Shown here one piece after another: positions 38,130-52,380 of a stretch of DNA of 64,000 nucleotides; the stretch's first letter is position 1; every line of letters starts with the position of its first letter. Origin of the DNA: Bacteroidales bacterium (GTDB lineage Bacteria; Bacteroidota; Bacteroidia; Bacteroidales; UBA932). Position numbers and translations under genes: made by a program. The DNA lies in contig JAFPVJ010000021.1 in assembly GCA_017400135.1 (NCBI GenBank), forward strand, positions 1 to 64,000. Direction: 5' to 3'. The notes below the pieces were generated by a model, which saw nothing but the letters and a program-made list of their open reading frames with translations, did no database searches and was not told where the DNA came from.

Positions 38130-39287
38130 ATGAAACGCTTTTTCCTAATTATTTCCTCCCTGGTCTGGTGCCTCGGCGCATTGGCCCAGGTGGACCAGGG
38201 CCGCGACCTGTCGAAATATGCGGACGACAAATTCCGTGACGACGATAAGTACAAGGTGGAGACGCCGTACGAGACGGTTACGGTCTCCCAGCCCAAATCC
38301 AAGCGCATCAAGAACGTCATCTTCATGATCGGCGACGGGATGGGCGTCGAGCAGGTCAGCGTCGGCTGGGTGCTCAACGGCGGCCACCTCAATCTGGATA
38401 ATTTCCCCTATACCGGCTACTCGCGCACCTATTGTACCAACAAGCTGATCACCGACTCCTGCGCAGGCGGTACCGCCCTCGCGATCGGCCAGAAGACGAC
38501 GTACGGCTACATGGGCGTCGACGCCGAGGGCAATCCCGTGAAGTCCCTGCTCCATCTGGCTCAGGAAAAAGGCATGAAGACCGGCGTCGCCGTGACCTGC
38601 CGCATCAACGATGCCACGCCGATCGACTTCGTCGGCCATTCCACGGAACGGCATGACGAGGCCGGCATCGCCGCACAGTACGTGGACAGCGGCGTGGACT
38701 TCCTCACCGGCGGCGGCATCAAGTTCTGGCAGAACCGCGAGGACGGCCGCGACCTAGTCGCGGAAATGGTCGCAAAGGGATACACCTTCGTGGACAATGA
38801 CGAGGATTTGAAGAAAGTGACGAAGGCTCCCCTCCTCGGCCTCTTCGCCCCGCTGGAGATGGAGCCCGCCCTCGACCGGGGGCCTGTCCTGGAGGACTGC
38901 GCCATGAAGGCGATCGAGCTTCTGGACAACCGCAAGGGCTTTTTCCTGATGATCGAAGGGTCGAGCATCGACGACTGGTGCCACCGGCAGAAGGTCGGTC
39001 ACATGGCCGAGGAGCTCTTCGACTTCGACCGCACCATCGGCAAGGTCCTGGAATGGGCCGAAAAAGACGGACACACCCTGGTCATCGTGACCGCGGACCA
39101 CGCCACCGGCGGCCTGACCCTGGTCGGCGGCAGCCTGGAAAAGCGATCCGTCAAGGTCCATTTCTCCACCAAGGGCCACAACGGCATCCTCGTGCCGGTT
39201 TTCGCGTACGGCCCGCATGCGGAGGAATTCGTCGGCGTGTATGAGAATGCCGACCTCTCCAACAAGATCCGGAAACTGATGAAATGA
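38130..39287 (+). CDS. Exported alkaline phosphatase
   Basis: The protein (385 aa) has a signal peptide (to about residue 20) and the alkaline phosphatase motifs IGDGMGVEQ, the phosphoserine region DSCAGGTALAIGQKT, SSIDDWCH, TADHATGGLT and the His in KGHNGILVPV. The active site follows the PhoA family but with an SCAGGT variant around the Ser. The ATG at 38130 gives the signal peptide, and an in-frame TTG at 38121 is rejected. It lies between GH2 and GH18 with ATGA coupling to the latter, so it is part of the PUL. Confidence 0.9.
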   Translation: MKRFFLIISSLVWCLGALAQVDQGRDLSKYADDKFRDDDKYKVETPYETVTVSQPKSKRIKNVIFMIGDGMGVEQVSVGWVLNGGHLNLDNFPYTGYSRTYCTNKLITDSCAGGTALAIGQKTTYGYMGVDAEGNPVKSLLHLAQEKGMKTGVAVTCRINDATPIDFVGHSTERHDEAGIAAQYVDSGVDFLTGGGIKFWQNREDGRDLVAEMVAKGYTFVDNDEDLKKVTKAPLLGLFAPLEMEPALDRGPVLEDCAMKAIELLDNRKGFFLMIEGSSIDDWCHRQKVGHMAEELFDFDRTIGKVLEWAEKDGHTLVIVTADHATGGLTLVGGSLEKRSVKVHFSTKGHNGILVPVFAYGPHAEEFVGVYENADLSNKIRKLMK

Positions 39288-40561
39288 AGATGAGGCATAT
39301 CCAATCTTTCCCCGCCATTCTCCTGGCCCTTTGCCTGGCTTGCGCCGTCATTTCCTGTGAGAAACCGACGCAGGGCATGGTCATCCCCACCCCGACGAAA
39401 CCCAGTCAGGGAGGCGGATCCGACAGTGGTGGAGGATCGGGAGGTTCCGGCGGCTCCGGCAACTCCGGCGGTTCGGGCGATACGGGAAGCAGTGACACGC
39501 CCACCTCTACCGGAACCCTTTGCACGGACATCGGCCAGAAGCCGGTGGTTCTGGCGTATTATACGGAATACTCTACCGAAATGCCGGATGTCACGCGCCT
39601 TACCCATATCAATTACGCGCACGGGCGTTTCGGCAACCCCAAGACCGGAGACGGCGGCATAGTTATCGCCGAGCACGGTAAACTCCAGCGTATCGTCGCC
39701 CTCAAAAGCCAGAATCCCAAGCTGAAGGTATTGCTGATGATCGGAGGATGGGGCGCCCATGCGGACGGGTTCTCCATGATGGCCCGCGACGCGGCCAAGC
39801 GCACCGCTTTCTGCAAGGCCGTCAAGGCGCATATCGACAATTACAAGCTGGATGGGGTGGACATCGACTGGGAGTATCCGACCCAGTCGGCCGACAACGA
39901 GACCGGGTGCGATCCCTCCGACACACAGAATTTCAATTTGGTACTGCAGGAACTCCGGGAGACCATCGGCACGTCCAAGATCATTTCTTTCGCCTCCTCT
40001 TCCAGCGCCAAATACGTGGACTGGTCCACGGCCATCAAGTACCTGGATTATGTCAACGTGATGACTTATGACATGGGGGCTGCGCCGAACGGGCACAATT
40101 CCCCGCTGTACCGGTCCTCCCGCTTCGCGCATCGCAGTTGTGACGAAAGCATCGCCGAACACGCCAAAAAGGGCGTCCCCATCGACCGGCAGGTAATGGG
40201 TGTCCCCTTCTATGGGAAGTCCAAGAAGAATCCGACGGAAGCGGAAAAGATTTTCGAGTATTCCGTCAAGTATTATGAGATCCCCGATATCCTGGAGAAA
40301 GGCATTTACCGGGACAAGCCGCTGAAGACAGCCGTCACCCGCGTCTTCGACGGAACGGCCAAGGTTCCTTACCTGTCCGACCCGCTCGGTAACAACGTCC
40401 TCTCCTACGATGATCCCGAGTCCGTCGGCATCAAGGGACAATATGTGAAAGACAAAGGTCTGCTCGGCGCCATGTTTTGGGAATACCGCTACGATGACGC
40501 CAACCATTCGCTGCTCAAGGCACTGGTGCAAGGCCTGTATGGAAAGGACAAAGTATTGTAA
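39284..40561 (+). CDS. GH18 glycosidase lipoprotein (chitinase type)
   Basis: The 425-residue protein has lipobox VISC (C25) followed by a Gly/Ser-rich linker (about 40-72). The GH18 barrel has KVLLMIGGWG, the catalytic motif DGVDIDWEYP (acid Glu) and VMTYDMG. The WE in DIDWE and the MTYD segment are typical of chitinases more than of ENGases. It is a paralog of the GH18 part of the protein at the far end of the PUL. The start overlaps the alkaline phosphatase stop as ATGA. Confidence 0.9.
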   Translation: MKMRHIQSFPAILLALCLACAVISCEKPTQGMVIPTPTKPSQGGGSDSGGGSGGSGGSGNSGGSGDTGSSDTPTSTGTLCTDIGQKPVVLAYYTEYSTEMPDVTRLTHINYAHGRFGNPKTGDGGIVIAEHGKLQRIVALKSQNPKLKVLLMIGGWGAHADGFSMMARDAAKRTAFCKAVKAHIDNYKLDGVDIDWEYPTQSADNETGCDPSDTQNFNLVLQELRETIGTSKIISFASSSSAKYVDWSTAIKYLDYVNVMTYDMGAAPNGHNSPLYRSSRFAHRSCDESIAEHAKKGVPIDRQVMGVPFYGKSKKNPTEAEKIFEYSVKYYEIPDILEKGIYRDKPLKTAVTRVFDGTAKVPYLSDPLGNNVLSYDDPESVGIKGQYVKDKGLLGAMFWEYRYDDANHSLLKALVQGLYGKDKVL

Positions 40562-40608: not shown

Positions 40609-43600
40609 ATGAAAAAGAAAGTGGTCCAATTGACAAGACTGGTTGTCCTGGGCTGTCTGCTCCTGGGGCTCTGCACGAATGCGTTCGCGCAGGGCGGCAA
40701 GGGGATCACCGTATCCGGTACGGTGCTGGACGGCGACGGACTTCCGGTCATCGGCGCAGCCGTGACCCTCAAGGGGACGACCGTGGGAGCCGCAGCCGGC
40801 GTGGACGGTGACTTTACGCTCACCGTTCCCGACGAAGGGGCGGTCCTGCAGTTTGTCGCCCTCGGCTATGTCACCCAGGAGGTGACCGTCGGGAAGCAGC
40901 GGACGATCACGGTCGTGCTCCAGGAAGATTCGCAGTCCATCGAGGCGACGGTCGTGGTGGCATACGGCACCCAGACCAAAGCCACGGTGACCGGCGCCTT
41001 GACGACGATCGACACGAAGCAACTCGTCAAGGCCCCCGTCGCGGACGTCACCAACGTCCTCGCCGGACAGATGCCCGGCGTGTCTACCGTCCAGGAGACC
41101 GGTCAGCCGGGTGAAGACTATGCCCAGATCTACATCCGTGGCGCCGGCTCCCTGTCCGACTCCAACTCCACCCCTCTCATCCTGGTCGATGGCGTCGAAC
41201 GCCCGTTGAATACGGTCGACCCGAATGAAATCGAGAGCCTGTCCATCCTGAAGGATGCCGCCTCCACGGCGGTGTTCGGTGTGCGCGGCGCGAACGGCGT
41301 CGTCATCGTCACCACCAAGCGCGGCGACGCCGGAAAACCCAAGATCACCCTGAGTTCCATCACGGGTGTCCAGGTGCCGATGTCCTATATCCGTCAGGCC
41401 AGCAGTTATGATTTCGCCCGCTATTACAACGTGTACCAGTGGAACGACGGCCGTACGGAAGAGAACCTCTACTTCAAGCCGGAGGCGATCGAGGCCTACC
41501 GGACCGGTAGCGACCCGCTGATGTTCCCGAACACCCAGTGGACCGAGCTGATGTTCCGCAAGGCCTTCATGCAGACCAAGAACAACATCAACATCTCCGG
41601 TGGTTCGGACAAGGTGCGCTACTTCGTGTCGATGGGCTATATGTACCAGAACGGTCTGCTCAAGCAGATGCCCGGCCTGCCGTACGACAACAACTTCTCC
41701 TACAACCGGTATAACTACCGCGCCAACCTGGACTTCAAGCTCACCGAGACCACGGACATGAAGTTCAACATCAGCGGCGTCATCGGTGACACCCGGGAAC
41801 CGCTGTCGGACGCCGACAACATCTGGATGCGCTCGATGCTGTGGTCCCACCCTACGGGCAGCCCCGGTGCAGTGAACGACATCCCGAAGACCACGGTTTC
41901 CACCAACGCGCTGCCATCCGGTCTGACCAAGTGGAACGGTTGGGAATATTACTATTGGAGAGGTTACCAGAACAAATACAAGACCACCCTGGGTATGGAC
42001 ATGACCATCACCCAGCACCTGGATTTCATCACGCAGGGCCTGAGCGTCGCCGTGCGCGGCAGCTACGACACCTCGATGTCGCTCACCAAGAAGCGTGAAG
42101 GCAACAACGGCGGTTATTCCCAGAAAATCGAGTACAAGACCTGGGCTGAGGAAGGCGGCAACATGTCCGATCCAACCTTCGACAAGACCTACGTGTATGA
42201 CGTGACCTATTCGGCCCCGACCCTCAGCTACAGCGAGAGCACAAGCGACGACAAGAGCTGGTACCTGGAAGGCCGCATCGACTACCGCCGCAAGTTCGCG
42301 CACAAGCACGCCGTCAGCGGCCTGCTGCTGTACAACCAGTCGCGCGACTACTACCCCAGCAAGTATTCCTGGCTGCCCCGCGGCTACGTGGGCTGGGTCG
42401 GCCGCATCACATACGGATACAAGGAAAAATACCTGGTCGACGTGAGCGCCGGTTACAACGGTTCCGAAAACTTTGCGCCCGGCAAGACCCGCTACGGTTT
42501 CTTCCCGTCCGCATCCCTGGGCTGGGTCGTCTCCGAGGAAAAATGGATGAAGAAGTTCTCCTGGATCGACTTCCTGAAGCTCCGCGCCTCCGTCGGCCTG
42601 GTCGGTAGCGACAAGGGTTCCAGCGCCCGCTTCATGTATATGGAAGGAGTCTGGAACGACGCCGGATCCTATTATTTCGGCGTCAACAAGAGCGATGGCG
42701 TCCCGCGCTACGAGATGGGTACGCCCGGCAACGAGGCCGTGACCTGGGAAACCGCGCTCAAGACGAACGCCGGTGTGGACTTCGACCTGTTCAATTACCG
42801 CCTGCACTTCTCCGGAGACCTGTTCTGGGAGCACCGTACGGGCATCCTCATTTCCCCGACTTCACTGCCCGGACTCCTCGCCTTCACGCCCCCGAACATG
42901 AACCTGGGTATCGTGGACAACCACGGTTACGAGCTTGAGCTGGGCTGGAAGGACCATATCGGCGCTTTTACCTACGACATCAGCGGCAACGTCACTTTCG
43001 CCCGGAACAAGATCATCGACATGGACGAAGTGGAGCCCAATTATGAATATCAGCGTCAGACCGGCGGTTCCACGGGACGCTATTCCCTTTACCAGTTCAA
43101 GCGGCTGTATCAGAAGAGCGACTTCTACACCGACGAAAACGGCGTGCGGCGCCTGAACAAGGACCTGCCTCAGCCCGGTACCACCGTGTATCCCGGCGAC
43201 GCGATGTACAAGGACCTCAATGGCGATGGGATCATCGACGGTAACGACATGATGATCGACGGATATCCCAACCGTCCGGAGTATGTGTTCGGTGCCAACA
43301 TGAAGTTCGGATGGAAGGGCTTCAACCTGAATCTGAACTGGGTGGCCGCCACCAACGTGAGCCGCGTGTGGAACGACGACTACCGCATCCCGTTCACCAA
43401 CTCCGGCCACCGCGGCCTCCTGGACTATTTCGCCCAGAACTCCTGGATCGACAACGACAACCCGTGGGCGCCCGGCCGCGAAGACGGCACCCTGCCGCGC
43501 TTCACCAAGACCAACTACCCCTGGAACTCCATGAACTCCACCCTCTGGACCGTGGACGCCAGCTATCTGCGTCTGAAGAGCGCCAGCTTCGGCTATACCT

Positions 43601-43782
43601 TCTCCCAGAGCAGGTTCTTCAAGAAACTGGGCATCAGCTCCCTGGGCCTGATGTTCACGGGCTACAACCTGTGGACCCTTTCCAAGATGACCCTGCAGGA
43701 TCCGGAAGCCCGGTCCAACGATTCCGACGGTCAGTACCCGTTGGTGAAGACCTATAACATGGCTGTCAACATCACCTTCTAA
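40609..43782 (+). CDS. SusC/RagA family TonB-dependent outer-membrane transporter (SusC1)
   Basis: This is the main glycan importer across the outer membrane. The 1057-residue protein has a signal peptide (to FAQG, residue 26), a carboxypeptidase-regulatory-like domain (30-110, with GTVLDGDGLPVIGAAVTLKG), a TonB-box-like VVVAYGTQ (about 121-128), a plug with LILVDGVERPLNTVDPNEIE and TAVFGVRGANGVVIVTTKRG, and a 22-strand barrel ending in VNITF. It is paired with SusD1 12 bases downstream. An AT-rich 47-base leader precedes it. Confidence 0.96.
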   Translation: MKKKVVQLTRLVVLGCLLLGLCTNAFAQGGKGITVSGTVLDGDGLPVIGAAVTLKGTTVGAAAGVDGDFTLTVPDEGAVLQFVALGYVTQEVTVGKQRTITVVLQEDSQSIEATVVVAYGTQTKATVTGALTTIDTKQLVKAPVADVTNVLAGQMPGVSTVQETGQPGEDYAQIYIRGAGSLSDSNSTPLILVDGVERPLNTVDPNEIESLSILKDAASTAVFGVRGANGVVIVTTKRGDAGKPKITLSSITGVQVPMSYIRQASSYDFARYYNVYQWNDGRTEENLYFKPEAIEAYRTGSDPLMFPNTQWTELMFRKAFMQTKNNINISGGSDKVRYFVSMGYMYQNGLLKQMPGLPYDNNFSYNRYNYRANLDFKLTETTDMKFNISGVIGDTREPLSDADNIWMRSMLWSHPTGSPGAVNDIPKTTVSTNALPSGLTKWNGWEYYYWRGYQNKYKTTLGMDMTITQHLDFITQGLSVAVRGSYDTSMSLTKKREGNNGGYSQKIEYKTWAEEGGNMSDPTFDKTYVYDVTYSAPTLSYSESTSDDKSWYLEGRIDYRRKFAHKHAVSGLLLYNQSRDYYPSKYSWLPRGYVGWVGRITYGYKEKYLVDVSAGYNGSENFAPGKTRYGFFPSASLGWVVSEEKWMKKFSWIDFLKLRASVGLVGSDKGSSARFMYMEGVWNDAGSYYFGVNKSDGVPRYEMGTPGNEAVTWETALKTNAGVDFDLFNYRLHFSGDLFWEHRTGILISPTSLPGLLAFTPPNMNLGIVDNHGYELELGWKDHIGAFTYDISGNVTFARNKIIDMDEVEPNYEYQRQTGGSTGRYSLYQFKRLYQKSDFYTDENGVRRLNKDLPQPGTTVYPGDAMYKDLNGDGIIDGNDMMIDGYPNRPEYVFGANMKFGWKGFNLNLNWVAATNVSRVWNDDYRIPFTNSGHRGLLDYFAQNSWIDNDNPWAPGREDGTLPRFTKTNYPWNSMNSTLWTVDASYLRLKSASFGYTFSQSRFFKKLGISSLGLMFTGYNLWTLSKMTLQDPEARSNDSDGQYPLVKTYNMAVNITF

Positions 43783-43794
43783 TCCGTGCGCACC

Positions 43795-45630
43795 ATGAAA
43801 AAATTCTATCACATTCTGACAATTGCCCTGCTGGGTGCAGGACTGGTCGCTTGCGAGAGTCTCAAGCTGGGTGACGCCGGCCTGTCCAAGGCCCCGGAAA
43901 CTTCCGGCGCCACCATCGACACGCTGTTCGCCTCCATCAAGGATGCGGACAAGGTCCTGGCCAATGCCTATTACTACCTCCCCTACGGGCTGGTATCTTC
44001 TTTCGACAGCAAGATGGGCGGTGACTTCCTGGAGTCCATCACCGACCATTTCATCAGCAATAAGCACTCCGACGACGACGGCCCCAACAACCTCTATTAC
44101 TCCGGTGGTATGAGTTCCAACCTCACCGGCTCCTATCAGGGTGGCGAGGCCTATCGTTTCGGCAGCGAAAAGGACTATCACGTCATCCGTTACGCCTGGC
44201 TGTTCCTGGAGAACGCCGACCGTATCCCGAACGCCGATCCGGCCCTCCTCGCCCAGAAGAAGGCGGAGGCCAAGATGTGCATGGCGATCGCATACGCCAA
44301 CATGCTTCGCTACGTGGGCGGCGTTCCCATCCTCGACCACGCCATTGTCATCGGCGAGGAAATGAATTTCCCCCGCAACACCTTCAAGGAGACGGTGGAT
44401 TATATCGTCAAGCTTTGTGACGAAGCCGCTCCGGACCTCCCCTGGTACGCAAGTACCACCGACGACGGCCGTTTGACGCGCGCCGCCGCCCTGGGTCTCA
44501 AGCTCCGGATCCTGTGCTTCGCCGCCTCTCCGACCTTCAACTCCAACACGCCCTTCCACCCTCAGGCCGACGAGTATGTCTGCTACGGCAATTACGACGC
44601 CCAGCGCTGGAAGGCAGCCAAGGATGCCGCCGACGCTTTCATGCGTGAGCAGATGACCGGCGGACATTACGCCCTGGTGCAGGCCAAGCCCGACGCCACG
44701 ACCGGCCTCATCACGCCCCGTGCCTATCGGCTGGCCTATCGCTCCGGTTACTTTGACCGGGGATCTTCGGAGGTCATCATCTCCATCCGCAAGTCCAACA
44801 GCAGCGACTACCTCGACAAGCACATCGACGTGCAGGACGACTATGGTTGCGGCGGCTCCCTCAACTGGGTGAACCGCTTCCCCTGGGCAGACGGCACACC
44901 GTTCCCGGAGGACTTCGATTGGACGGATCCCAAGAGCTGGCCCGAGAAGCCCTTCTTCCGCCAGGATCCCCAGGGCGACCTCAAGGTGGGCAACACCCTC
45001 CTGATGGAGACCCGCGATCCCCGTCTGTACGAGAACCTTTGCGTTCCCGGCGACGTCTGGAAGAACGGCAACGTCGGCCCGAACTACGACAACGCCAAGA
45101 ACCCCAATGTCCAGGACGGCTGCACCGGTTTCCTGATGATGAAGTATGTGCTTCAGCAGGAGGCCGACCGCAACAATCCGCCCCACTGGTGCATGATGCG
45201 CTTCGCAGAGGTCCTGCTGAACGCGGCGGAAGCCTACAACGAAGCCGATGGCGGTCCCTCCGACAAGGCGTACGCCTGGGTCAACGCCGTCCGCGCCCGT
45301 GTCGGTCTGCCCGGTCTTCCGGAAGGCCTGAGCAAGGAAGAGTTCCGCAAGGCCATCCTGCTGGAGCGGGACCTGGAGTTCGGCTTCGAGGAAGTGCGCT
45401 GGTTCGACATGGTTCGCTGGGGTCTGACGGAAGCCTTCACCACGCCGTTGCAGAAGCTCATCCCCCACGGAAACAAGCAGACCAACGCCGATGACTTCAC
45501 CTACACGACCGGTGAGGCATATCCGACCCGCAAGTGGTACACCGATTTCGACACCAAATGGTATCTCGCCCCCATCCCGACCATTGAGATCAACAAGGGC
45601 TACGGGATGACTCAGAATCCGGGTTGGTAA
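43795..45630 (+). CDS. SusD/RagB family nutrient-binding outer-membrane lipoprotein (SusD1)
   Basis: SusD1 forms the lid of SusC1 and binds the glycan at the cell surface. The 611-residue protein has lipobox LVAC (C20) followed by ESLKLGD, alpha-helical TPR-like segments (AEAKMCMAIAYANMLRYVGGVPI), and a C-terminal region with MRFAEVLLNAAEAYNEA and ILLERDLEFGFEEVRWFDMVRWG. The ATG at 43795 is chosen because it gives a proper signal peptide, and a GTG nine bases earlier is in frame. Confidence 0.95.
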   Translation: MKKFYHILTIALLGAGLVACESLKLGDAGLSKAPETSGATIDTLFASIKDADKVLANAYYYLPYGLVSSFDSKMGGDFLESITDHFISNKHSDDDGPNNLYYSGGMSSNLTGSYQGGEAYRFGSEKDYHVIRYAWLFLENADRIPNADPALLAQKKAEAKMCMAIAYANMLRYVGGVPILDHAIVIGEEMNFPRNTFKETVDYIVKLCDEAAPDLPWYASTTDDGRLTRAAALGLKLRILCFAASPTFNSNTPFHPQADEYVCYGNYDAQRWKAAKDAADAFMREQMTGGHYALVQAKPDATTGLITPRAYRLAYRSGYFDRGSSEVIISIRKSNSSDYLDKHIDVQDDYGCGGSLNWVNRFPWADGTPFPEDFDWTDPKSWPEKPFFRQDPQGDLKVGNTLLMETRDPRLYENLCVPGDVWKNGNVGPNYDNAKNPNVQDGCTGFLMMKYVLQQEADRNNPPHWCMMRFAEVLLNAAEAYNEADGGPSDKAYAWVNAVRARVGLPGLPEGLSKEEFRKAILLERDLEFGFEEVRWFDMVRWGLTEAFTTPLQKLIPHGNKQTNADDFTYTTGEAYPTRKWYTDFDTKWYLAPIPTIEINKGYGMTQNPGW

Positions 45631-45637
45631 ACCTAAA

Positions 45638-48600
45638 ATGTACCCGAAGATGAAAAGATTAATAAAATATATCGTCCTTCCGCTGCTTCTCTGCGGTTCC
45701 GCGGCGTTCGCCCAGGAAACGTCGATGCTGGATTCGATTTCGTTGGGCAATGCCTTCGGGATCCGGGCCAACATCAATGCCTCCGCCGACGCCAGCCTCT
45801 TTGACAAAAGCCCGGAAACGGACATTTCCAACGCCCTCTACGGGCAGTTCGCAGGACTCCTGGTCAAGACAGGATCCAGCGTATACGATTCCAACCAGTC
45901 CAGGCTCAAGCTGTCCCTGCGTCTGCACGGCCACAGCCCGCTGGTCCTGGTCGACGGCATTCCGCGCGACGTGGACGACCTGATGGGACTCGAGATTGAG
46001 TCCATCACCGTCCTGAAAGACGCGGCAGCCGCCGCCCTGTACGGTGTCAAAGGCGCCAACGGCGTGATTTCGATCAACACCAAGCGCGGGCAGGATTCGA
46101 AACTGAAGGTGACGGCCAACTACCAGTACGGCTACCAGACGATGTTCCGGGCCCCGGTATTCGCCGACGCCTATACCTACGGTTTCATGGTCAACGAAGC
46201 CCGCAGCCTGGATGGCCTGCCCGTCAAGTACAACGATGCGGAATTGCTGGCCCTCTACAGCGGCCAGTATCCGTACGCCTACCCCAACGTCAACTGGTGG
46301 GACGAGGTCTACCGCAACCACGGTGACAACCAACAGGCCGAGTTCACCTTCCAGGGCGGCAACAAGAACTTCCGTTACTTCGCCGCCATCGACTACCTCA
46401 AGGAGGACTTCCTCTACAAGAAGGCGACGGCCGACGACCGCTACAACGCCAACCACTACGACAACCGCCTGGGCATCCGGGCCAACGTCGACGTGAACAT
46501 CACCGAGACCACCTCGATGAAGGTGGGCGTGATGGCCCGCCTGGCCGAATTCAACAAGGGCAACTACAGCAGCCGCATCGAGAAGACCCTGTATTCCCTG
46601 CCGTCGGCCGCCTTCCCCGTGAAGCAGGTCGACGGAACGTACGGCGGAACCTCCCTGTACGGCGCCATCAACCCGGTGGCCCAGATGCAGGAGATGGGTC
46701 AGAAGCAGTATTCCCAGACCAAGGTGCTGGCCGACATGATGCTCCGCCAGGACCTGGGCGGTCTCCTCGAAGGCCTCTCGGCCGACGCCAGCGTGGCGTT
46801 TGACTACATCGGCCGTCTGTCCGAGGACGCTACCAAGGAATTCCGTTATTCCGAACTCGTCAGCACGGTCGCGATGCAGGGCAACCAGAGTTACATCCTC
46901 AGCGAGCAGAAGTACTACGGCATCAACTCCAAGGTAGTGGAATTCAGCCACTGGTTCTCCAGCCTGCAGATGCGTTTCGAGTTGCAGGGCCGCCTCAACT
47001 GGGCCCGCGACTTCGACCGGAACCACCTCGAAGCCCACACCGCCTATCGCCAGCGCTCCTGGATCCTGAGCGGACGCAACGAGTCGTCCAAGACCCAGGA
47101 AATCCTGGGCAGCGTCAGTTACAACTGGAACCAGCGCCTCTTTGCAGACGTGGTTGCCAACTATTCCGGCAGCGCCTATCTGCCTAAGGGCAAGCGTTTC
47201 CACCTGTATCCTGCCGTGAGCCTGGCCGGCGTCATACTGCCCGGCGACCCGTACCTCAAGGCTTACGCGTCGGCCGGCCTCGCCGGCAGCGATGACGACC
47301 TGGAGCACGAACTCTGGCGCCAGAACTACGTGAGCGGCAAGAGCTACTACTTCGGCCCCGGCGGCGGTTCCTCCTCCAGCGGGCGCACGGAGACCAATAT
47401 GGCTGCCGTTACCCTGGCGCCCGAGCAGTCTGCCAAGGCTACGCTGGGCACGGATGCCAAGTTCTTTGACAAGCGTCTCGCCATCAATGCGGAAGGCTTC
47501 CTGGAGAAACGCACCAACATGCTCATTTCCCCGGCCAACGTGTCGGAGGTCGTCGGCCTGGACCTGAACGAACAGAGCGTGGGTCAGGCGACCTACCAGG
47601 GCGTCGACCTTTCCGTCGCCTGGAACGAATCCCGGGGCGACTTTGAATACGGCCTCTACGCCAACGGCGGCTGGCTCTGGAGCAAGGTCATCGACGACGG
47701 CCAGGCCTACCAGGCCTACGACTACCTGTACCGCAAGGGCAACCCTGTGGGCCAGAAGTTCGGCCTCGAGGTGATCGGCATTTTCCAGAACCAGATGGAG
47801 ATCAACAACAGCCCGCGCCAGACCTTCGGCGACGTGCGTCCCGGTGACCTCAAGTACCTCGACCAGAACGGCGACGGCGTCATCGACAAGCAGGACCAGG
47901 TCAAGATGTTCGGCACCTCCACCCCGATGTTCCAGTTCGGCTTCGGCCTGAACGCCGGCTACAAGGGATTCAAGGTCTACGCCGACTTCCAGGGCGTCAC
48001 GGGCGTGACGATCAGCCTGCTGGATTCTCCCCTGTATCAGCCCCTCGTCAGCAACGGGACCATCTCCAAGACCTTTATGGACCGGGAGATCACCTGGGCG
48101 CCGGGTCGGGAGGAATATGCGACCATGCCCCGTCTGACCACGCTGGAGAACAGCAACAACTATCGCGACAACTCCCTGTGGTACCGCGACGGTTCCTTCA
48201 TCAAGCTGCGCAACGTGGGGATCTCCTACATGCTTCCGAAGAAGCTCCTGCGCTTCTGTGAGGCCACCGTCTATGTCCGGGGCACCAACCTCTTCAGCCT
48301 GGACAACATCCATTTTGCCGACCCGGAGCAGTTGGGCGCCTACTATCCGTCCCTCCGCACCTTCTGGGGCGGCCTCACGATGAAGTTCGGCTACGGCGAC
48401 GAAGCGAAGAAGGCTGACCGCCCGGCCAGCCCCCGCAGGAAAGCGGAGCCGGTCATGACGGAGAAGATCGTTGAAAAGATCGTGGAGAAGATCGTGGAGA
48501 AGGAAGTCCCGGTCGAAAAGATCGTGGAGAAGCCTGTCCCCGCAAGCACGCTCAACGATATCTACGAGGACAATCTCTACTTCCTCATCGGTGAAGCCGA

Positions 48601-48880
48601 GCTCCGGCCCGACGAGACCTTCAAGCTGGGCCGGATCTGCCAGATCCTCAAAGACAACCCCGATACGAAGATCCAGATCGACGGTTATGCGGACTCCGGT
48701 ACCGGAACGGCCGACATCAACCGGAGGCTGTCCGCCCAGCGGGCCGCCGCCGTTGCCGCGATGCTGACCAAGGCCGGCATTGCCGCCAGCCGCATCGAAA
48801 GCTCCGGCACAGGCTCTGACCGCGATGCCAGCGCGACTCCCGAATCCAACCGCGTTGCGGTATGCATCGTCAAACCCTAA
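45638..48880 (+). CDS. SusC-like TonB-dependent transporter fused to a C-terminal OmpA domain (SusC2)
   Basis: The 1080-residue protein has a signal peptide (to about residue 28) and goes straight into a plug (LVLVDGIPRDVDDLMGLEIE, AAALYGVKGANGVISINTKRG) without the usual N-terminal carboxypeptidase-like domain or a VVVxYG TonB box. The barrel ends with a normal last strand, GGLTMKFGYG, near residue 917. After that come an EKIV-repeat linker (about 945-965) and an OmpA-type domain (980-1080) with IQIDGYADSGTG, NRRLSAQRAAAVAAML and SSGTGSD. The Asp and Arg that hold diaminopimelate in OmpA domains are present. The fusion would tether the barrel to peptidoglycan. It is paired with SusD2. The frame is unbroken, and an ATG at 45650 is an alternative start. 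Confidence 0.9.
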   Translation: MYPKMKRLIKYIVLPLLLCGSAAFAQETSMLDSISLGNAFGIRANINASADASLFDKSPETDISNALYGQFAGLLVKTGSSVYDSNQSRLKLSLRLHGHSPLVLVDGIPRDVDDLMGLEIESITVLKDAAAAALYGVKGANGVISINTKRGQDSKLKVTANYQYGYQTMFRAPVFADAYTYGFMVNEARSLDGLPVKYNDAELLALYSGQYPYAYPNVNWWDEVYRNHGDNQQAEFTFQGGNKNFRYFAAIDYLKEDFLYKKATADDRYNANHYDNRLGIRANVDVNITETTSMKVGVMARLAEFNKGNYSSRIEKTLYSLPSAAFPVKQVDGTYGGTSLYGAINPVAQMQEMGQKQYSQTKVLADMMLRQDLGGLLEGLSADASVAFDYIGRLSEDATKEFRYSELVSTVAMQGNQSYILSEQKYYGINSKVVEFSHWFSSLQMRFELQGRLNWARDFDRNHLEAHTAYRQRSWILSGRNESSKTQEILGSVSYNWNQRLFADVVANYSGSAYLPKGKRFHLYPAVSLAGVILPGDPYLKAYASAGLAGSDDDLEHELWRQNYVSGKSYYFGPGGGSSSSGRTETNMAAVTLAPEQSAKATLGTDAKFFDKRLAINAEGFLEKRTNMLISPANVSEVVGLDLNEQSVGQATYQGVDLSVAWNESRGDFEYGLYANGGWLWSKVIDDGQAYQAYDYLYRKGNPVGQKFGLEVIGIFQNQMEINNSPRQTFGDVRPGDLKYLDQNGDGVIDKQDQVKMFGTSTPMFQFGFGLNAGYKGFKVYADFQGVTGVTISLLDSPLYQPLVSNGTISKTFMDREITWAPGREEYATMPRLTTLENSNNYRDNSLWYRDGSFIKLRNVGISYMLPKKLLRFCEATVYVRGTNLFSLDNIHFADPEQLGAYYPSLRTFWGGLTMKFGYGDEAKKADRPASPRRKAEPVMTEKIVEKIVEKIVEKEVPVEKIVEKPVPASTLNDIYEDNLYFLIGEAELRPDETFKLGRICQILKDNPDTKIQIDGYADSGTGTADINRRLSAQRAAAVAAMLTKAGIAASRIESSGTGSDRDASATPESNRVAVCIVKP

Positions 48881-48892
48881 AGCGAGAAGGAA

Positions 48893-50605
48893 ATGAAAAA
48901 GATATTCTACTTTCTGTCGGTCGTAATCCTGTGTGCAGGATGTAACGTCCTGGATTTTGACGAGACGTCTGCCAGCTACTCCCGCGAGGATATGATCACC
49001 AGCTTCGACAACATTGCCAAGCTGCTCACCAACGTATATGGTTTCATGCCGAACAAGGACATCGCCGACGTAAGCAGCGCCCTGCGCGACTGCGGCTCGG
49101 ACGACGCCGAATACGCCGACCCCGAGGCCTCCGTGCAGCGTTTCACCAACGGCAACTGGAGCGCCATCTCCACCGTGGATGACAAGTGGGAGCTCTTCGG
49201 CGGCATCCGCGCGGCCAACGACTACCTGGAACTGGTCTGGGACGACGCGAAGAAGGACATCCGGGACGACGTCCTGGAGAACCTTTCCCTCTTCAAGTAT
49301 ACGTCCAAATACGCCAGGAACATGGAGAAGCTCGCCTGCGGCCCTTACGAGGCCCGCGTCCTGCGCGCCTACTACTTCTTCGAACTGGCCCGCCGCTACG
49401 GGGACATCCCCATGCCGCTGACCAAGCTCACCGTCGAAGAGGCCAACACCATCGCGAAGACCCCCTTCAACGAGGTCATCGACTTCATCGTGGCCGAGTG
49501 TGACGAGGCGGCCGCCCACCTCCCTAAGACCTTCGTCGGAATGGAGGGAGACGAGATCGGCCGCGTCACCCAGGGATTTGCCCTGGCCGTGAAGGCGAAG
49601 GCGCTGCTCTATGCCGCCTCTCCCCTCTTCAACACGACGGGCGACAAGGCCAAGTGGCAGAAGGCCGCAGCGGCGGCCAAGGCCATCATCGATATGAACT
49701 ACTACCAGCTGGATCCCGCCGAGAAGGCCAACAACTACCTCTCCAACGAGGTGGTCCTGGCCATCTGTCGTTCTGAGAGCCAGAGTTTCGAACGCTACAA
49801 CTATCCGGTCCGGTTCACATACGGCGACCGCACCTCGATGGCTGGAAGCTACCCCACCCAGAACCTGGTCGATGCGTTCCAGACGCTCGCCGGCTACGAC
49901 ATCACCCTGACGTCGAACGGCTGGCAGACGGACGATCCCAACTTCGACGTCACCCAACCATACGAGGGCCGGGACCCGCGCTTTGCCAGGGCCGTCCTCG
50001 CCAACGGAATGACGTTCAAGGGTTCCACCATCGAGACCTACGTGGGTGGCCGGGATTATTCCAAGACCCGCAGCGATCTGGGCACGGTCACCGGTTACTA
50101 CCTCCGGCGCTACCTCATCGAGGACGTGGACTTCACGCCCGAGGCGCAGGTCAAGGCCAAGCACCAGTGGATCATCTACCGCTATGCGGAGGCCCTCCTG
50201 AGCTACGCGGAGGCGCTCAACGAGTACCTGGGCAGTCCGACTGCCACCGACGGCACCTTCACCCTCAGCGCCCTCGACGCCCTGAACCAGGTGCGCGCCA
50301 ACGCCGGGATGCCGGATGTGACGGCTGCTTCCGCGGACGCTTTCCGCGAGGCGGTGCGCCGCGAGTGGCGGGTGGAATTCGCCTTCGAAGACCACCGTTT
50401 CTGGGGTGTGCGCCGCTGGGATATCGGCCTGAGCACGCAAGGACAGATTGACGGCGTGCAGATCACCCGCAGCGGCAACACGTTCGGGTACAAGCGCGTC
50501 ACCGTCGAAAAGCGTACCTGGGCGCCCAAGATGAACCTTTACCCCATTCCTCAGACAGAACTCTTCTGCAATCCCAATCTCCAACCTCAGAATAACGGAT
50601 GGTAG
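48893..50605 (+). CDS. SusD/RagB family lipoprotein (SusD2)
   Basis: This is the partner lid for SusC2, 12 bases downstream of it. The 570-residue protein has lipobox CAGC (C17) followed by NVLDFDE. The helical domain includes YEARVLRAYYFFELARRYGDIPMPL and GFALAVKAKALLYAASPLFN, and the C-terminal part includes YRYAEALLSYAEALNEYLG and VRREWRVEFAFEDHRFWGVRRWDIG. Both are typical SusD features. It is clearly diverged from SusD1, so it may bind a different chain length or form of the substrate. Confidence 0.95.
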   Translation: MKKIFYFLSVVILCAGCNVLDFDETSASYSREDMITSFDNIAKLLTNVYGFMPNKDIADVSSALRDCGSDDAEYADPEASVQRFTNGNWSAISTVDDKWELFGGIRAANDYLELVWDDAKKDIRDDVLENLSLFKYTSKYARNMEKLACGPYEARVLRAYYFFELARRYGDIPMPLTKLTVEEANTIAKTPFNEVIDFIVAECDEAAAHLPKTFVGMEGDEIGRVTQGFALAVKAKALLYAASPLFNTTGDKAKWQKAAAAAKAIIDMNYYQLDPAEKANNYLSNEVVLAICRSESQSFERYNYPVRFTYGDRTSMAGSYPTQNLVDAFQTLAGYDITLTSNGWQTDDPNFDVTQPYEGRDPRFARAVLANGMTFKGSTIETYVGGRDYSKTRSDLGTVTGYYLRRYLIEDVDFTPEAQVKAKHQWIIYRYAEALLSYAEALNEYLGSPTATDGTFTLSALDALNQVRANAGMPDVTAASADAFREAVRREWRVEFAFEDHRFWGVRRWDIGLSTQGQIDGVQITRSGNTFGYKRVTVEKRTWAPKMNLYPIPQTELFCNPNLQPQNNGW

Positions 50606-50634
50606 ACCCAATCTCGATCAAAAACAATCAGAAT

Positions 50635-52380
50635 ATGAAAACATTTATCAGAATCTTTGTTTGTTTGGGTGTCCTTGCCGCGGCGGTTTCCTGCCAGCTG
50701 TACCATATCGACACGCAAATGACGCCCGAGAAGGCGGCTGCCAACATCAGGATGGTGTGCGACGCCCTGCCTTCCTATACCGCTGCAGCGAGCCGTGCGG
50801 ATGCCATTTCCTTTACGGTAAGTTCGAATACGCCCTGGACCATCACCCGTTCCAACGGAGCTGACTGGTGCACGGTGACCCCTTCCTCCAGCGCCAACTC
50901 CTCGCTCATCTCGAGCGTGGTCGTAACCCTGGACGACAATCCGGACGGCACGGACCGCACCGCCACCCTCACCCTGAGGGGAGATAACATCGCGGCCCCC
51001 GTCACCATCCAGATCACGCAGAACAGGCAGGGACGCCTGTTCGTCACCCCGATCGCCAAGGATTTCGTGGCAGCGGGCGGCCCCCTGTCTTTCACCCTCA
51101 ACGCCAACCAGGACTGGACCGTCCGCAGCGACGTCTCCTGGCTGCATTTCAACCGCGAATCCGGCACCCCCGATCCGGACGGACGCACCATCACCATCAT
51201 CGCCACGGCTGATCCGAGCGATGTCCTGACGCGTACCGCCACGGTTACCGTGACCGCCGGTGACGACGAGGAAAGTTTCGAAATCGCCCAGGTAGGACGC
51301 TTCGAGCTGACCGAGGCCGCCACCGAATTCTCCGACGAAGGCGGCTCCCAGACCATGAAACTGCGCACCGACCTCCCCTGGACGGTTTCCGCTGACAAGA
51401 ACTGGATCACCATCGACCCGGCGGAAGGCATCGGCGACGGCTCCAGCGTGGACATCACCGTCACGGCCGCGCCCAACAGCGAGGCCGCGCGCAAAGCCGT
51501 CATCACCGTGACGGCGGGCGATGCCGTCAAGACCTTCGAAGTCTCCCAGGCGGGTGCCGCGTTCGAAATCGTCACGCCCGAGCGTACGGAATTGGACGGT
51601 GAAGCCGATGAACTCATCCTGGAAGTGAAGACCGCCCTCGACTGGGAGCCGGCCACCTCAGTGGAAGGCTGGGCCGTCGAGAAGGTTGACGCCAAGCATT
51701 TCAAGCTTACGGCAGGATGGAACGGCCTCTTCGCCCCCAAGAAGGGCAAGGTGGCCATCACGGGCTCCGGCGGTGCCCTGTCTGAGCTGGAACTCACCCA
51801 GGACTGCAACTTCACCTTCGAAGGCAACTGCGAAGTCCAGGAAGACGGATCCGTGAAGATTTCCGCCGGCGCAAGGTCGCGCGTCAACTTCAAGAAACTC
51901 TACAAACACGCCACCTTCATCCTGAAGATGGGCGCCGTCCACTTCGAAGACAATGGCGAATTCTGGCTGGTCACGCATGAAGCCGGCATGATCAAGGACT
52001 GCGAAATCGAGAACCGAATCTCCCTGTACAAGACCAGCAACATCCGCTTGCGGGCCAACGCCCAATTCCCCGACGGGTCCGCCAAAGCCAGCGGAAGCGC
52101 CACCTACAGCGACAAAGTCAACAAAGACGTCCTCAACGCCATGACGGAGTACCGGGTCGATTTCGTCTCCGCACCGAATCCTGATCCGGAGAAGGCTGAC
52201 AGGACCCTCCGCATGGCTTTCTCTCTCAACGGAACGCTCATCGCCGAACAGTGGGTGTATGACATCTTTGACTATGCTGGCCAGGACATGTCCGCCCCGT
52301 ACTGGTTCGGCTATTACGAGGCCCAGTCCGACGGCACCTGGTACATCGTTAAATCCTGTGACGTAACCCTCTACGAGTAG
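50635..52380 (+). CDS. Lipoprotein with tandem BACON domains (SusE/F position)
   Basis: The protein (581 aa) has lipobox AVSC (C20). At least three, probably four, BACON Ig-like repeats follow (about 45-390), each with the W-T/I-V motif and a [IV]-x-Q terminal strand (TPWTITRSNGADWCTV, DWTVRSDVSWLHF, PWTVSADKNWITI, DWEPATSVEGW). The C-terminal 190 residues form a beta-rich region, possibly a carbohydrate-binding jelly roll. Its position after SusD2 is that of a surface glycan-binding protein. The ATG at 50635 is chosen over an in-frame upstream ATG at 50599 inside susD2. Confidence 0.87.
   Translation: MKTFIRIFVCLGVLAAAVSCQLYHIDTQMTPEKAAANIRMVCDALPSYTAAASRADAISFTVSSNTPWTITRSNGADWCTVTPSSSANSSLISSVVVTLDDNPDGTDRTATLTLRGDNIAAPVTIQITQNRQGRLFVTPIAKDFVAAGGPLSFTLNANQDWTVRSDVSWLHFNRESGTPDPDGRTITIIATADPSDVLTRTATVTVTAGDDEESFEIAQVGRFELTEAATEFSDEGGSQTMKLRTDLPWTVSADKNWITIDPAEGIGDGSSVDITVTAAPNSEAARKAVITVTAGDAVKTFEVSQAGAAFEIVTPERTELDGEADELILEVKTALDWEPATSVEGWAVEKVDAKHFKLTAGWNGLFAPKKGKVAITGSGGALSELELTQDCNFTFEGNCEVQEDGSVKISAGARSRVNFKKLYKHATFILKMGAVHFEDNGEFWLVTHEAGMIKDCEIENRISLYKTSNIRLRANAQFPDGSAKASGSATYSDKVNKDVLNAMTEYRVDFVSAPNPDPEKADRTLRMAFSLNGTLIAEQWVYDIFDYAGQDMSAPYWFGYYEAQSDGTWYIVKSCDVTLYE

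Follow-up and report, generated by a model that had tools for sequence, protein, structure and literature searches.

A SusC-type importer extended by an OmpA-like domain, a probable tether to the cell wall, in a Bacteroidales genome

We find that a gene for a SusC/RagA-type importer runs on, past the end of its barrel, into a linker and an OmpA-like domain, the whole being encoded by a single open reading frame of 1080 residues with no internal stops (45638–48880, + strand, of the 64,000-nucleotide stretch analyzed here, hereafter the window). At the level of sequence this SusC–OmpA fusion is certain; as to its role, the tail probably ties the SusCD importer to peptidoglycan non-covalently. 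Tailed importers occur in a group of gut bacteria, and the tail appears suited to holding on to the cell wall. The gene and its neighbors are arranged as follows.

39284..40561 (+): GH18 glycoside hydrolase, upstream of the tandem on the same strand (PF00704, 219.8 bits)
40609..43782 (+): ordinary untailed SusC with a CarboxypepD-like domain, first tandem pair (TIGR04056, 927.4 bits; PF13715)
43786..45630 (+): SusD of the first pair (PF07980, 157.1 bits)
45638..48388 (+): SusC/RagA part of the tailed protein (TIGR04056, Plug, Foldseek of the predicted model, alignment)
48389..48562 (+): linker of ~58 residues with EKIV repeats, predicted to be disordered (pLDDT)
48563..48877 (+): OmpA-like, putatively peptidoglycan-binding domain, residues 976–1080 (PF00691, tail model, Foldseek)
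48692–48694 and 48740–48742 (+): predicted diaminopimelate (DAP)-contact residues D1019 and R1035 (alignment)
48893..50605 (+): SusD partner lipoprotein, 12 bases downstream of the tailed SusC (PF07980, 156.4 bits; PF14322, 38.2 bits)
50599..52380 (+): BACON-domain protein, a probable glycan binder (PF13004, 113.9 bits)

Domain structure of the window protein

The first part of the protein is recognized by curated profiles: TIGR04056 (SusC/RagA) scores 532.1 bits against a cut-off of 368.25, its match spanning residues 55–917 and profile positions 106–981 of 981 (up to the final profile position), and both the TIGR04057 signature (residues 119–149, 58.1 versus 46.2) and the Plug domain (residues 51–143, 28.3 versus 23.9) lie above their cut-offs; a signal peptide presumably stands at its start. 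A full-length AlphaFold model, of modest confidence (mean pLDDT 67.2, 34 sequences), has as its best Foldseek match the SusC of the dextran utilisome (8aa4, E 1.1e-52). The initial annotation had described a frame that outruns its last barrel strand, to be checked by profile search and structure prediction, and this description holds: the final strand occupies residues 906–917 of a frame that extends to residue 1080, the OmpA, Plug and SusC/RagA profiles all exceed their cut-offs, and the model comprises a SusC barrel, a disordered linker and an OmpA fold (residues 976–1078).

An N-terminal CarboxypepD-like domain is usual in SusC/RagA proteins without defining them; PF13715 matches 27 of the 34 rows of one SusC alignment (29 tailed, 5 untailed; counts only). 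Pfam finds none in the window protein, in contrast to its untailed neighbor, and alignment of the region 45638–45830 with its counterparts indicates that the window gene and four orthologs lack both this domain and a VVVVGYG-like stretch (which we take to be the TonB box), despite following a normal SusCD pair; an LDSISLGNAFG-like sequence stands at the position of that stretch. The TonB drive of the window copy may therefore be less secure.

The EKIV-repeat linker noted at the outset is indeed present, and residues 920–967 have pLDDT below 50 in the full-length model, as does the linker in a separate model of the tail; a helical spacer, considered at first, is disfavored by this predicted disorder. 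The domain beyond it carries the GYAD and NRRLSAQRA motifs that had led to its assignment as OmpA-type, and the assignment is upheld by PF00691 (residues 981–1069, E 1.2e-16, 61.2 bits versus a cut-off of 27.2). In the tail-only model, block means of pLDDT reach 86–97 across the domain, and Foldseek returns 9uu2, 3td3 and 3td5 at E 3.5e-9 to 6.2e-8 (for 9uu2, E 3.5e-9 with a TM by target of 0.89), with further matches to OprF (5u1h) and to Acinetobacter baumannii OmpA (3td3 to 3td5); 3td4 and 3td5 are DAP and DAP-peptide complexes of OmpA/Pal-type domains. The small barrel that precedes the domain in classical OmpA is not present in the window protein, which has the SusC barrel in its place, and the Pal lipoprotein equivalog TIGR02802 scores 37 bits, below its cut-off of 125.35. 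The DAP-contacting Asp and Arg, previously suggested to be conserved, align as D1019 and R1035, 16 residues apart; this is one more than the 15 between D142 and R157 of Pseudomonas aeruginosa Pba, as given in PMC7947798. From these likenesses, residues 976–1080 would be expected to bind peptidoglycan.

Locus, source genome and relatives

The untailed SusC at 40609..43782 ends at its last barrel strand, so that the window holds two tandem susCD pairs of which the second is tailed. Around them lie two GH18 genes (39284, 58974), a GH20 gene (32539) and a GH2 gene (35614), together with genes for a ROK protein, an alkaline phosphatase and BACON proteins; this complement hints at a substrate rich in amino sugars, for example chitin or an N-glycan. 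Also beside these genes is one for a regulator that combines periplasmic-binding-like and AraC-type domains. The span 31369–61046 is probably a polysaccharide utilization locus (PUL).

The source genome (2.3 Mb, 28 contigs, 88.58% complete; the window lies on contig 19) encodes 31 SusC proteins above the TIGR04056 cut-off, and five of these bear a tail: the window protein and four others, on contigs C24 (1224 residues), C22 (1174), C6 (1357) and C7 (1267). The other 26 stop at the last strand, as judged from their last 45 residues and a profile match ending at position 980–981. Two ordinary OmpA proteins (C5, C10), each a PF13505 barrel joined to PF00691 by an Ala-rich linker, persist in the same genome; the SusC tail is hence additional to them, and we reject the notion that it replaces OmpA.

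The same fusion, for which a search of related genomes had been advised, occurs in many relatives. A contig scan whose search patterns derive from three aligned tails (a choice that biases the sample) returned 35 loci, of which 34 are SusC–OmpA frames, from 26 metagenome-assembled genomes (MAGs), the exception (L052) being a plain 426-residue frame; L040 and L049 lack their 5′ ends and L050 its 3′ end because the contigs stop there, and many of the record titles name ruminants. Among them all, the four orthologs of the window gene bear most directly on its integrity: each keeps the tail and the frame, with an untailed SusC upstream, and this speaks against a frameshift or misassembly at the junction, the prospect of which had been raised initially. 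The fusion is known from assemblies alone, MAGs included; its presence in those 26 MAGs and in at least 20 genomes of the family sample (partly overlapping sets) nonetheless makes the probability of an artefact negligible.

In that family sample, a profile of the junction gave at least 41 matches spanning barrel end to domain, in at least 20 of 398 genomes (the source genome included); six candidates per genome were scored, making these counts lower bounds, a few frames are cut, and the sample overlaps the named loci in part (G342 is the genome of L049). Twelve genomes of a 101-genome genus sample hold OmpA-domain frames longer than 900 residues among the matches listed, with SusC status confirmed for part of them. 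Across the 393 genomes of an order sample (some of them of the source family), the sole match at E 1e-35 besides the source genome is a 390-residue plain OmpA, and in the 395 genomes of a phylum sample, which overlaps the former, the other five matches at E 1e-24 are the termini of ordinary SusC proteins, closed by a stop codon. No fusion outside the source family was thus seen in these 393 and 395 overlapping genomes with six candidates scored in each, a depth at which rare or distant fusions could escape. The boundary of the distribution is blurred by one tailed locus, L051, whose record is labeled Bacteroidaceae. The 390-residue plain OmpA (L083) belongs to another family of the order, and its EKIVEKVV-like linker is similar to the linkers found in SusC tails; plain OmpA proteins of its kind are a possible source type of the tails.

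By a motif test, 49 of the 54 tailed frames have a charged-repeat linker like that of the window protein, and it mostly starts after a GLxLxFG-like strand end, as seen in a comparison of junctions where the motif-based cut is misplaced in several rows (e.g., L024, L031, L035, L037, L049 and L051) and no constant residue is claimed. The remaining five tails (L012 on C6, L013 on C7, L117, L118 and L119) combine other linkers (Ala/Glu-rich or similar) with diverged domains, so that not all tails need act alike; they probably arose by separate capture of an OmpA domain. The Asp and Arg for DAP contact occur together in 51 of 52 tails, the exception being L119, with Asn at the position of the Asp. 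Tail dN/dS values of 0.03–0.30 (14 hand-chosen pairs, several with dS near or above 1) indicate that the tails are under purifying selection.

By a small SusD HMM, 45 of the 54 tailed loci are followed by a SusD-like frame; in L035, L044 and L046 it lies ~1.4 kb away, a BACON protein intervening in L046. Nine loci gave no hit: L045, where Pfam does identify a SusD-like protein (PF12741); L048, whose SusC protein is identical to that of L045; and seven more with flanks of just 3 to 1700 bases. The view that homologs end at the barrel and are followed by a separate OmpA gene, the counter-case named at the start, is rejected for the loci checked, in which the gene after susC is susD.

Spread of the tail among SusC importers

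Trees of the barrels and of the tails were compared. Placing the tail label on a tree of 83 SusC bodies (52 tailed, 31 untailed) takes 13 changes, of which starred branches force 12, against 25.2 when the labels are shuffled; the tree is a quick one (LG+G4) in which long branches meet, so the count is soft and covers gains and losses together. It leads us to reject a single SusC lineage that gained the tail once. A second tree combines 48 tails with 13 plain OmpA domains (those that scored best, rather than a full sample); in it, a branch with support 99/96 separates 47 of the 48 tails from the plain domains. All tails stay together on one side in 56% of 200 bootstrap trees, from 102 columns, with the bootstrap not settled and four long-branch tails left out. 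Judged from these two phylogenies, one tail family is borne by many unrelated SusC importers. The C6 tail groups with the plain domains, which points to a separate capture; in an earlier tree with three plain domains, C6 and L117 stood beside the plain ones with weak support.

How a tail might pass between barrels is illustrated by the C24 and C22 genes, whose bodies share 25% residue identity and whose tail domains share 91% DNA identity. Block identity is 87–95% over the last 300 bases and the local alignment begins within the linker, whose repeats may serve as a point of exchange between SusC genes. Striking as this pair is, homogenizing of tails within a genome is not supported as a general rule: for bodies less than 45% alike, median tail DNA identity is 0.71 in 22 same-genome pairs and 0.69 in 1253 different-genome pairs (two duplicate rows included). 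At one locus the tail differs between orthologs: it is present in L049 and absent in L108 (contig C14 of the source genome), although the 3′ part of susC aligns over 657 of 868 bases and susD then over 218 of 291. The tail is hence dispensable somewhere.

These observations can be joined into a wider reading, which we consider unlikely in its full form: one OmpA-type tail family would be a transferable anchor cassette, recombined among SusC importers that are unrelated and span about a dozen clades, and making them wall-anchored against TonB pull or vesicle loss; the window's tailed SusC, having no CarboxypepD-like domain, may pair with its untailed neighbor in a mixed dimer and provide the anchored half.

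Proposed role and comparison with known systems

With its barrel in the outer membrane, a SusC protein has its C-terminus on the periplasmic side. From there, a flexible linker of ~58 residues could reach peptidoglycan, where the OmpA-like domain would hold the diaminopimelate of a stem peptide non-covalently, like OmpA and Pal; the SusCD complex would thereby be tied to the wall, and the tie could act as a counter-hold when TonB pulls the plug, a presumed benefit for import. The initial annotation had likewise suggested that such a tail might fix the transporter to the wall or couple import to it. For such anchoring we count the curated domain scores, the OmpA/Pal-like predicted fold, the kept Asp and Arg, the low dN/dS, the recurrence of the fusion and the SusD partner; against it, the Asn of L119, the five divergent tails, the tail-less ortholog, the modest model and the N-terminal differences of the window copy.

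Two other explanations are uses of an anchor and so compatible with wall anchoring. SusC barrels could act as extra envelope tethers of the OmpA/Pal kind, import being unaffected. PUL importers are as a rule produced only on their substrate, which suits a constant brace poorly, and two ordinary OmpA proteins remain in the source genome; in its favor, tails occur on SusC of many clades, so that substrate seems not to matter, and one study reports that a genome database yielded no pal genes for Bacteroidetes (PMC12204202). On balance we regard a brace as a doubtful but serious candidate. Retention, in which the anchor keeps importers from being shed in outer-membrane vesicles, strikes us as tentative to much the same degree: it would follow from wall binding and agrees with a tail that is optional and locus-specific, as expected of a tuning trait, but the sequence offers nothing that separates it from other uses of an anchor. 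By contrast, a tail that does not bind the wall, being a folding or assembly aid or simply neutral, appears quite improbable; the missing tail at an orthologous locus and the lost Asp of L119 would fit it, and the low dN/dS, the conserved DAP residues (51 of 52 tails) and the many SusC clades argue against it. Wall anchoring remains our preferred reading, and a tail that comes and goes on many glycan importers amounts to a natural experiment on how wall attachment bears on import, TonB force balance and vesicle shedding; the ortholog pair with and without it (L049 and L108) makes its effect directly testable.

Among the matches listed in a search of the open-access literature (titles and abstract starts, with subscription papers and preprints outside its scope), we found no report of a SusC–OmpA fusion. 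By sequence and predicted fold (Foldseek), the window protein belongs to the same barrel/plug family as SusC of the dextran and levan utilisomes (8aa4, 8a9y) and RagA (6sln), with a SusD gene adjacent in both cases, but adds a linker and an OmpA domain; to our knowledge, solved SusC/RagA structures end at the last strand. With OmpA/OprF-type proteins it shares the order of outer-membrane barrel, linker and C-terminal DAP-binding-type domain, the difference being that theirs is a small barrel joined to PF00691 and this one a large SusC importer with a plug and a SusD partner. Pal lipoproteins and PorE of the type IX secretion system (6top) likewise carry an OmpA-like domain on a membrane-held part of an envelope machine, that part being a lipid anchor or CpoB/TolB-like modules rather than a TonB-dependent barrel (PMC12204202). 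Ton-driven import has itself been linked to peptidoglycan through ExbD of the Ton motor (PMC10771500; review PMC11658791); there, the wall would be held by the inner-membrane motor, and here by the outer-membrane transporter.
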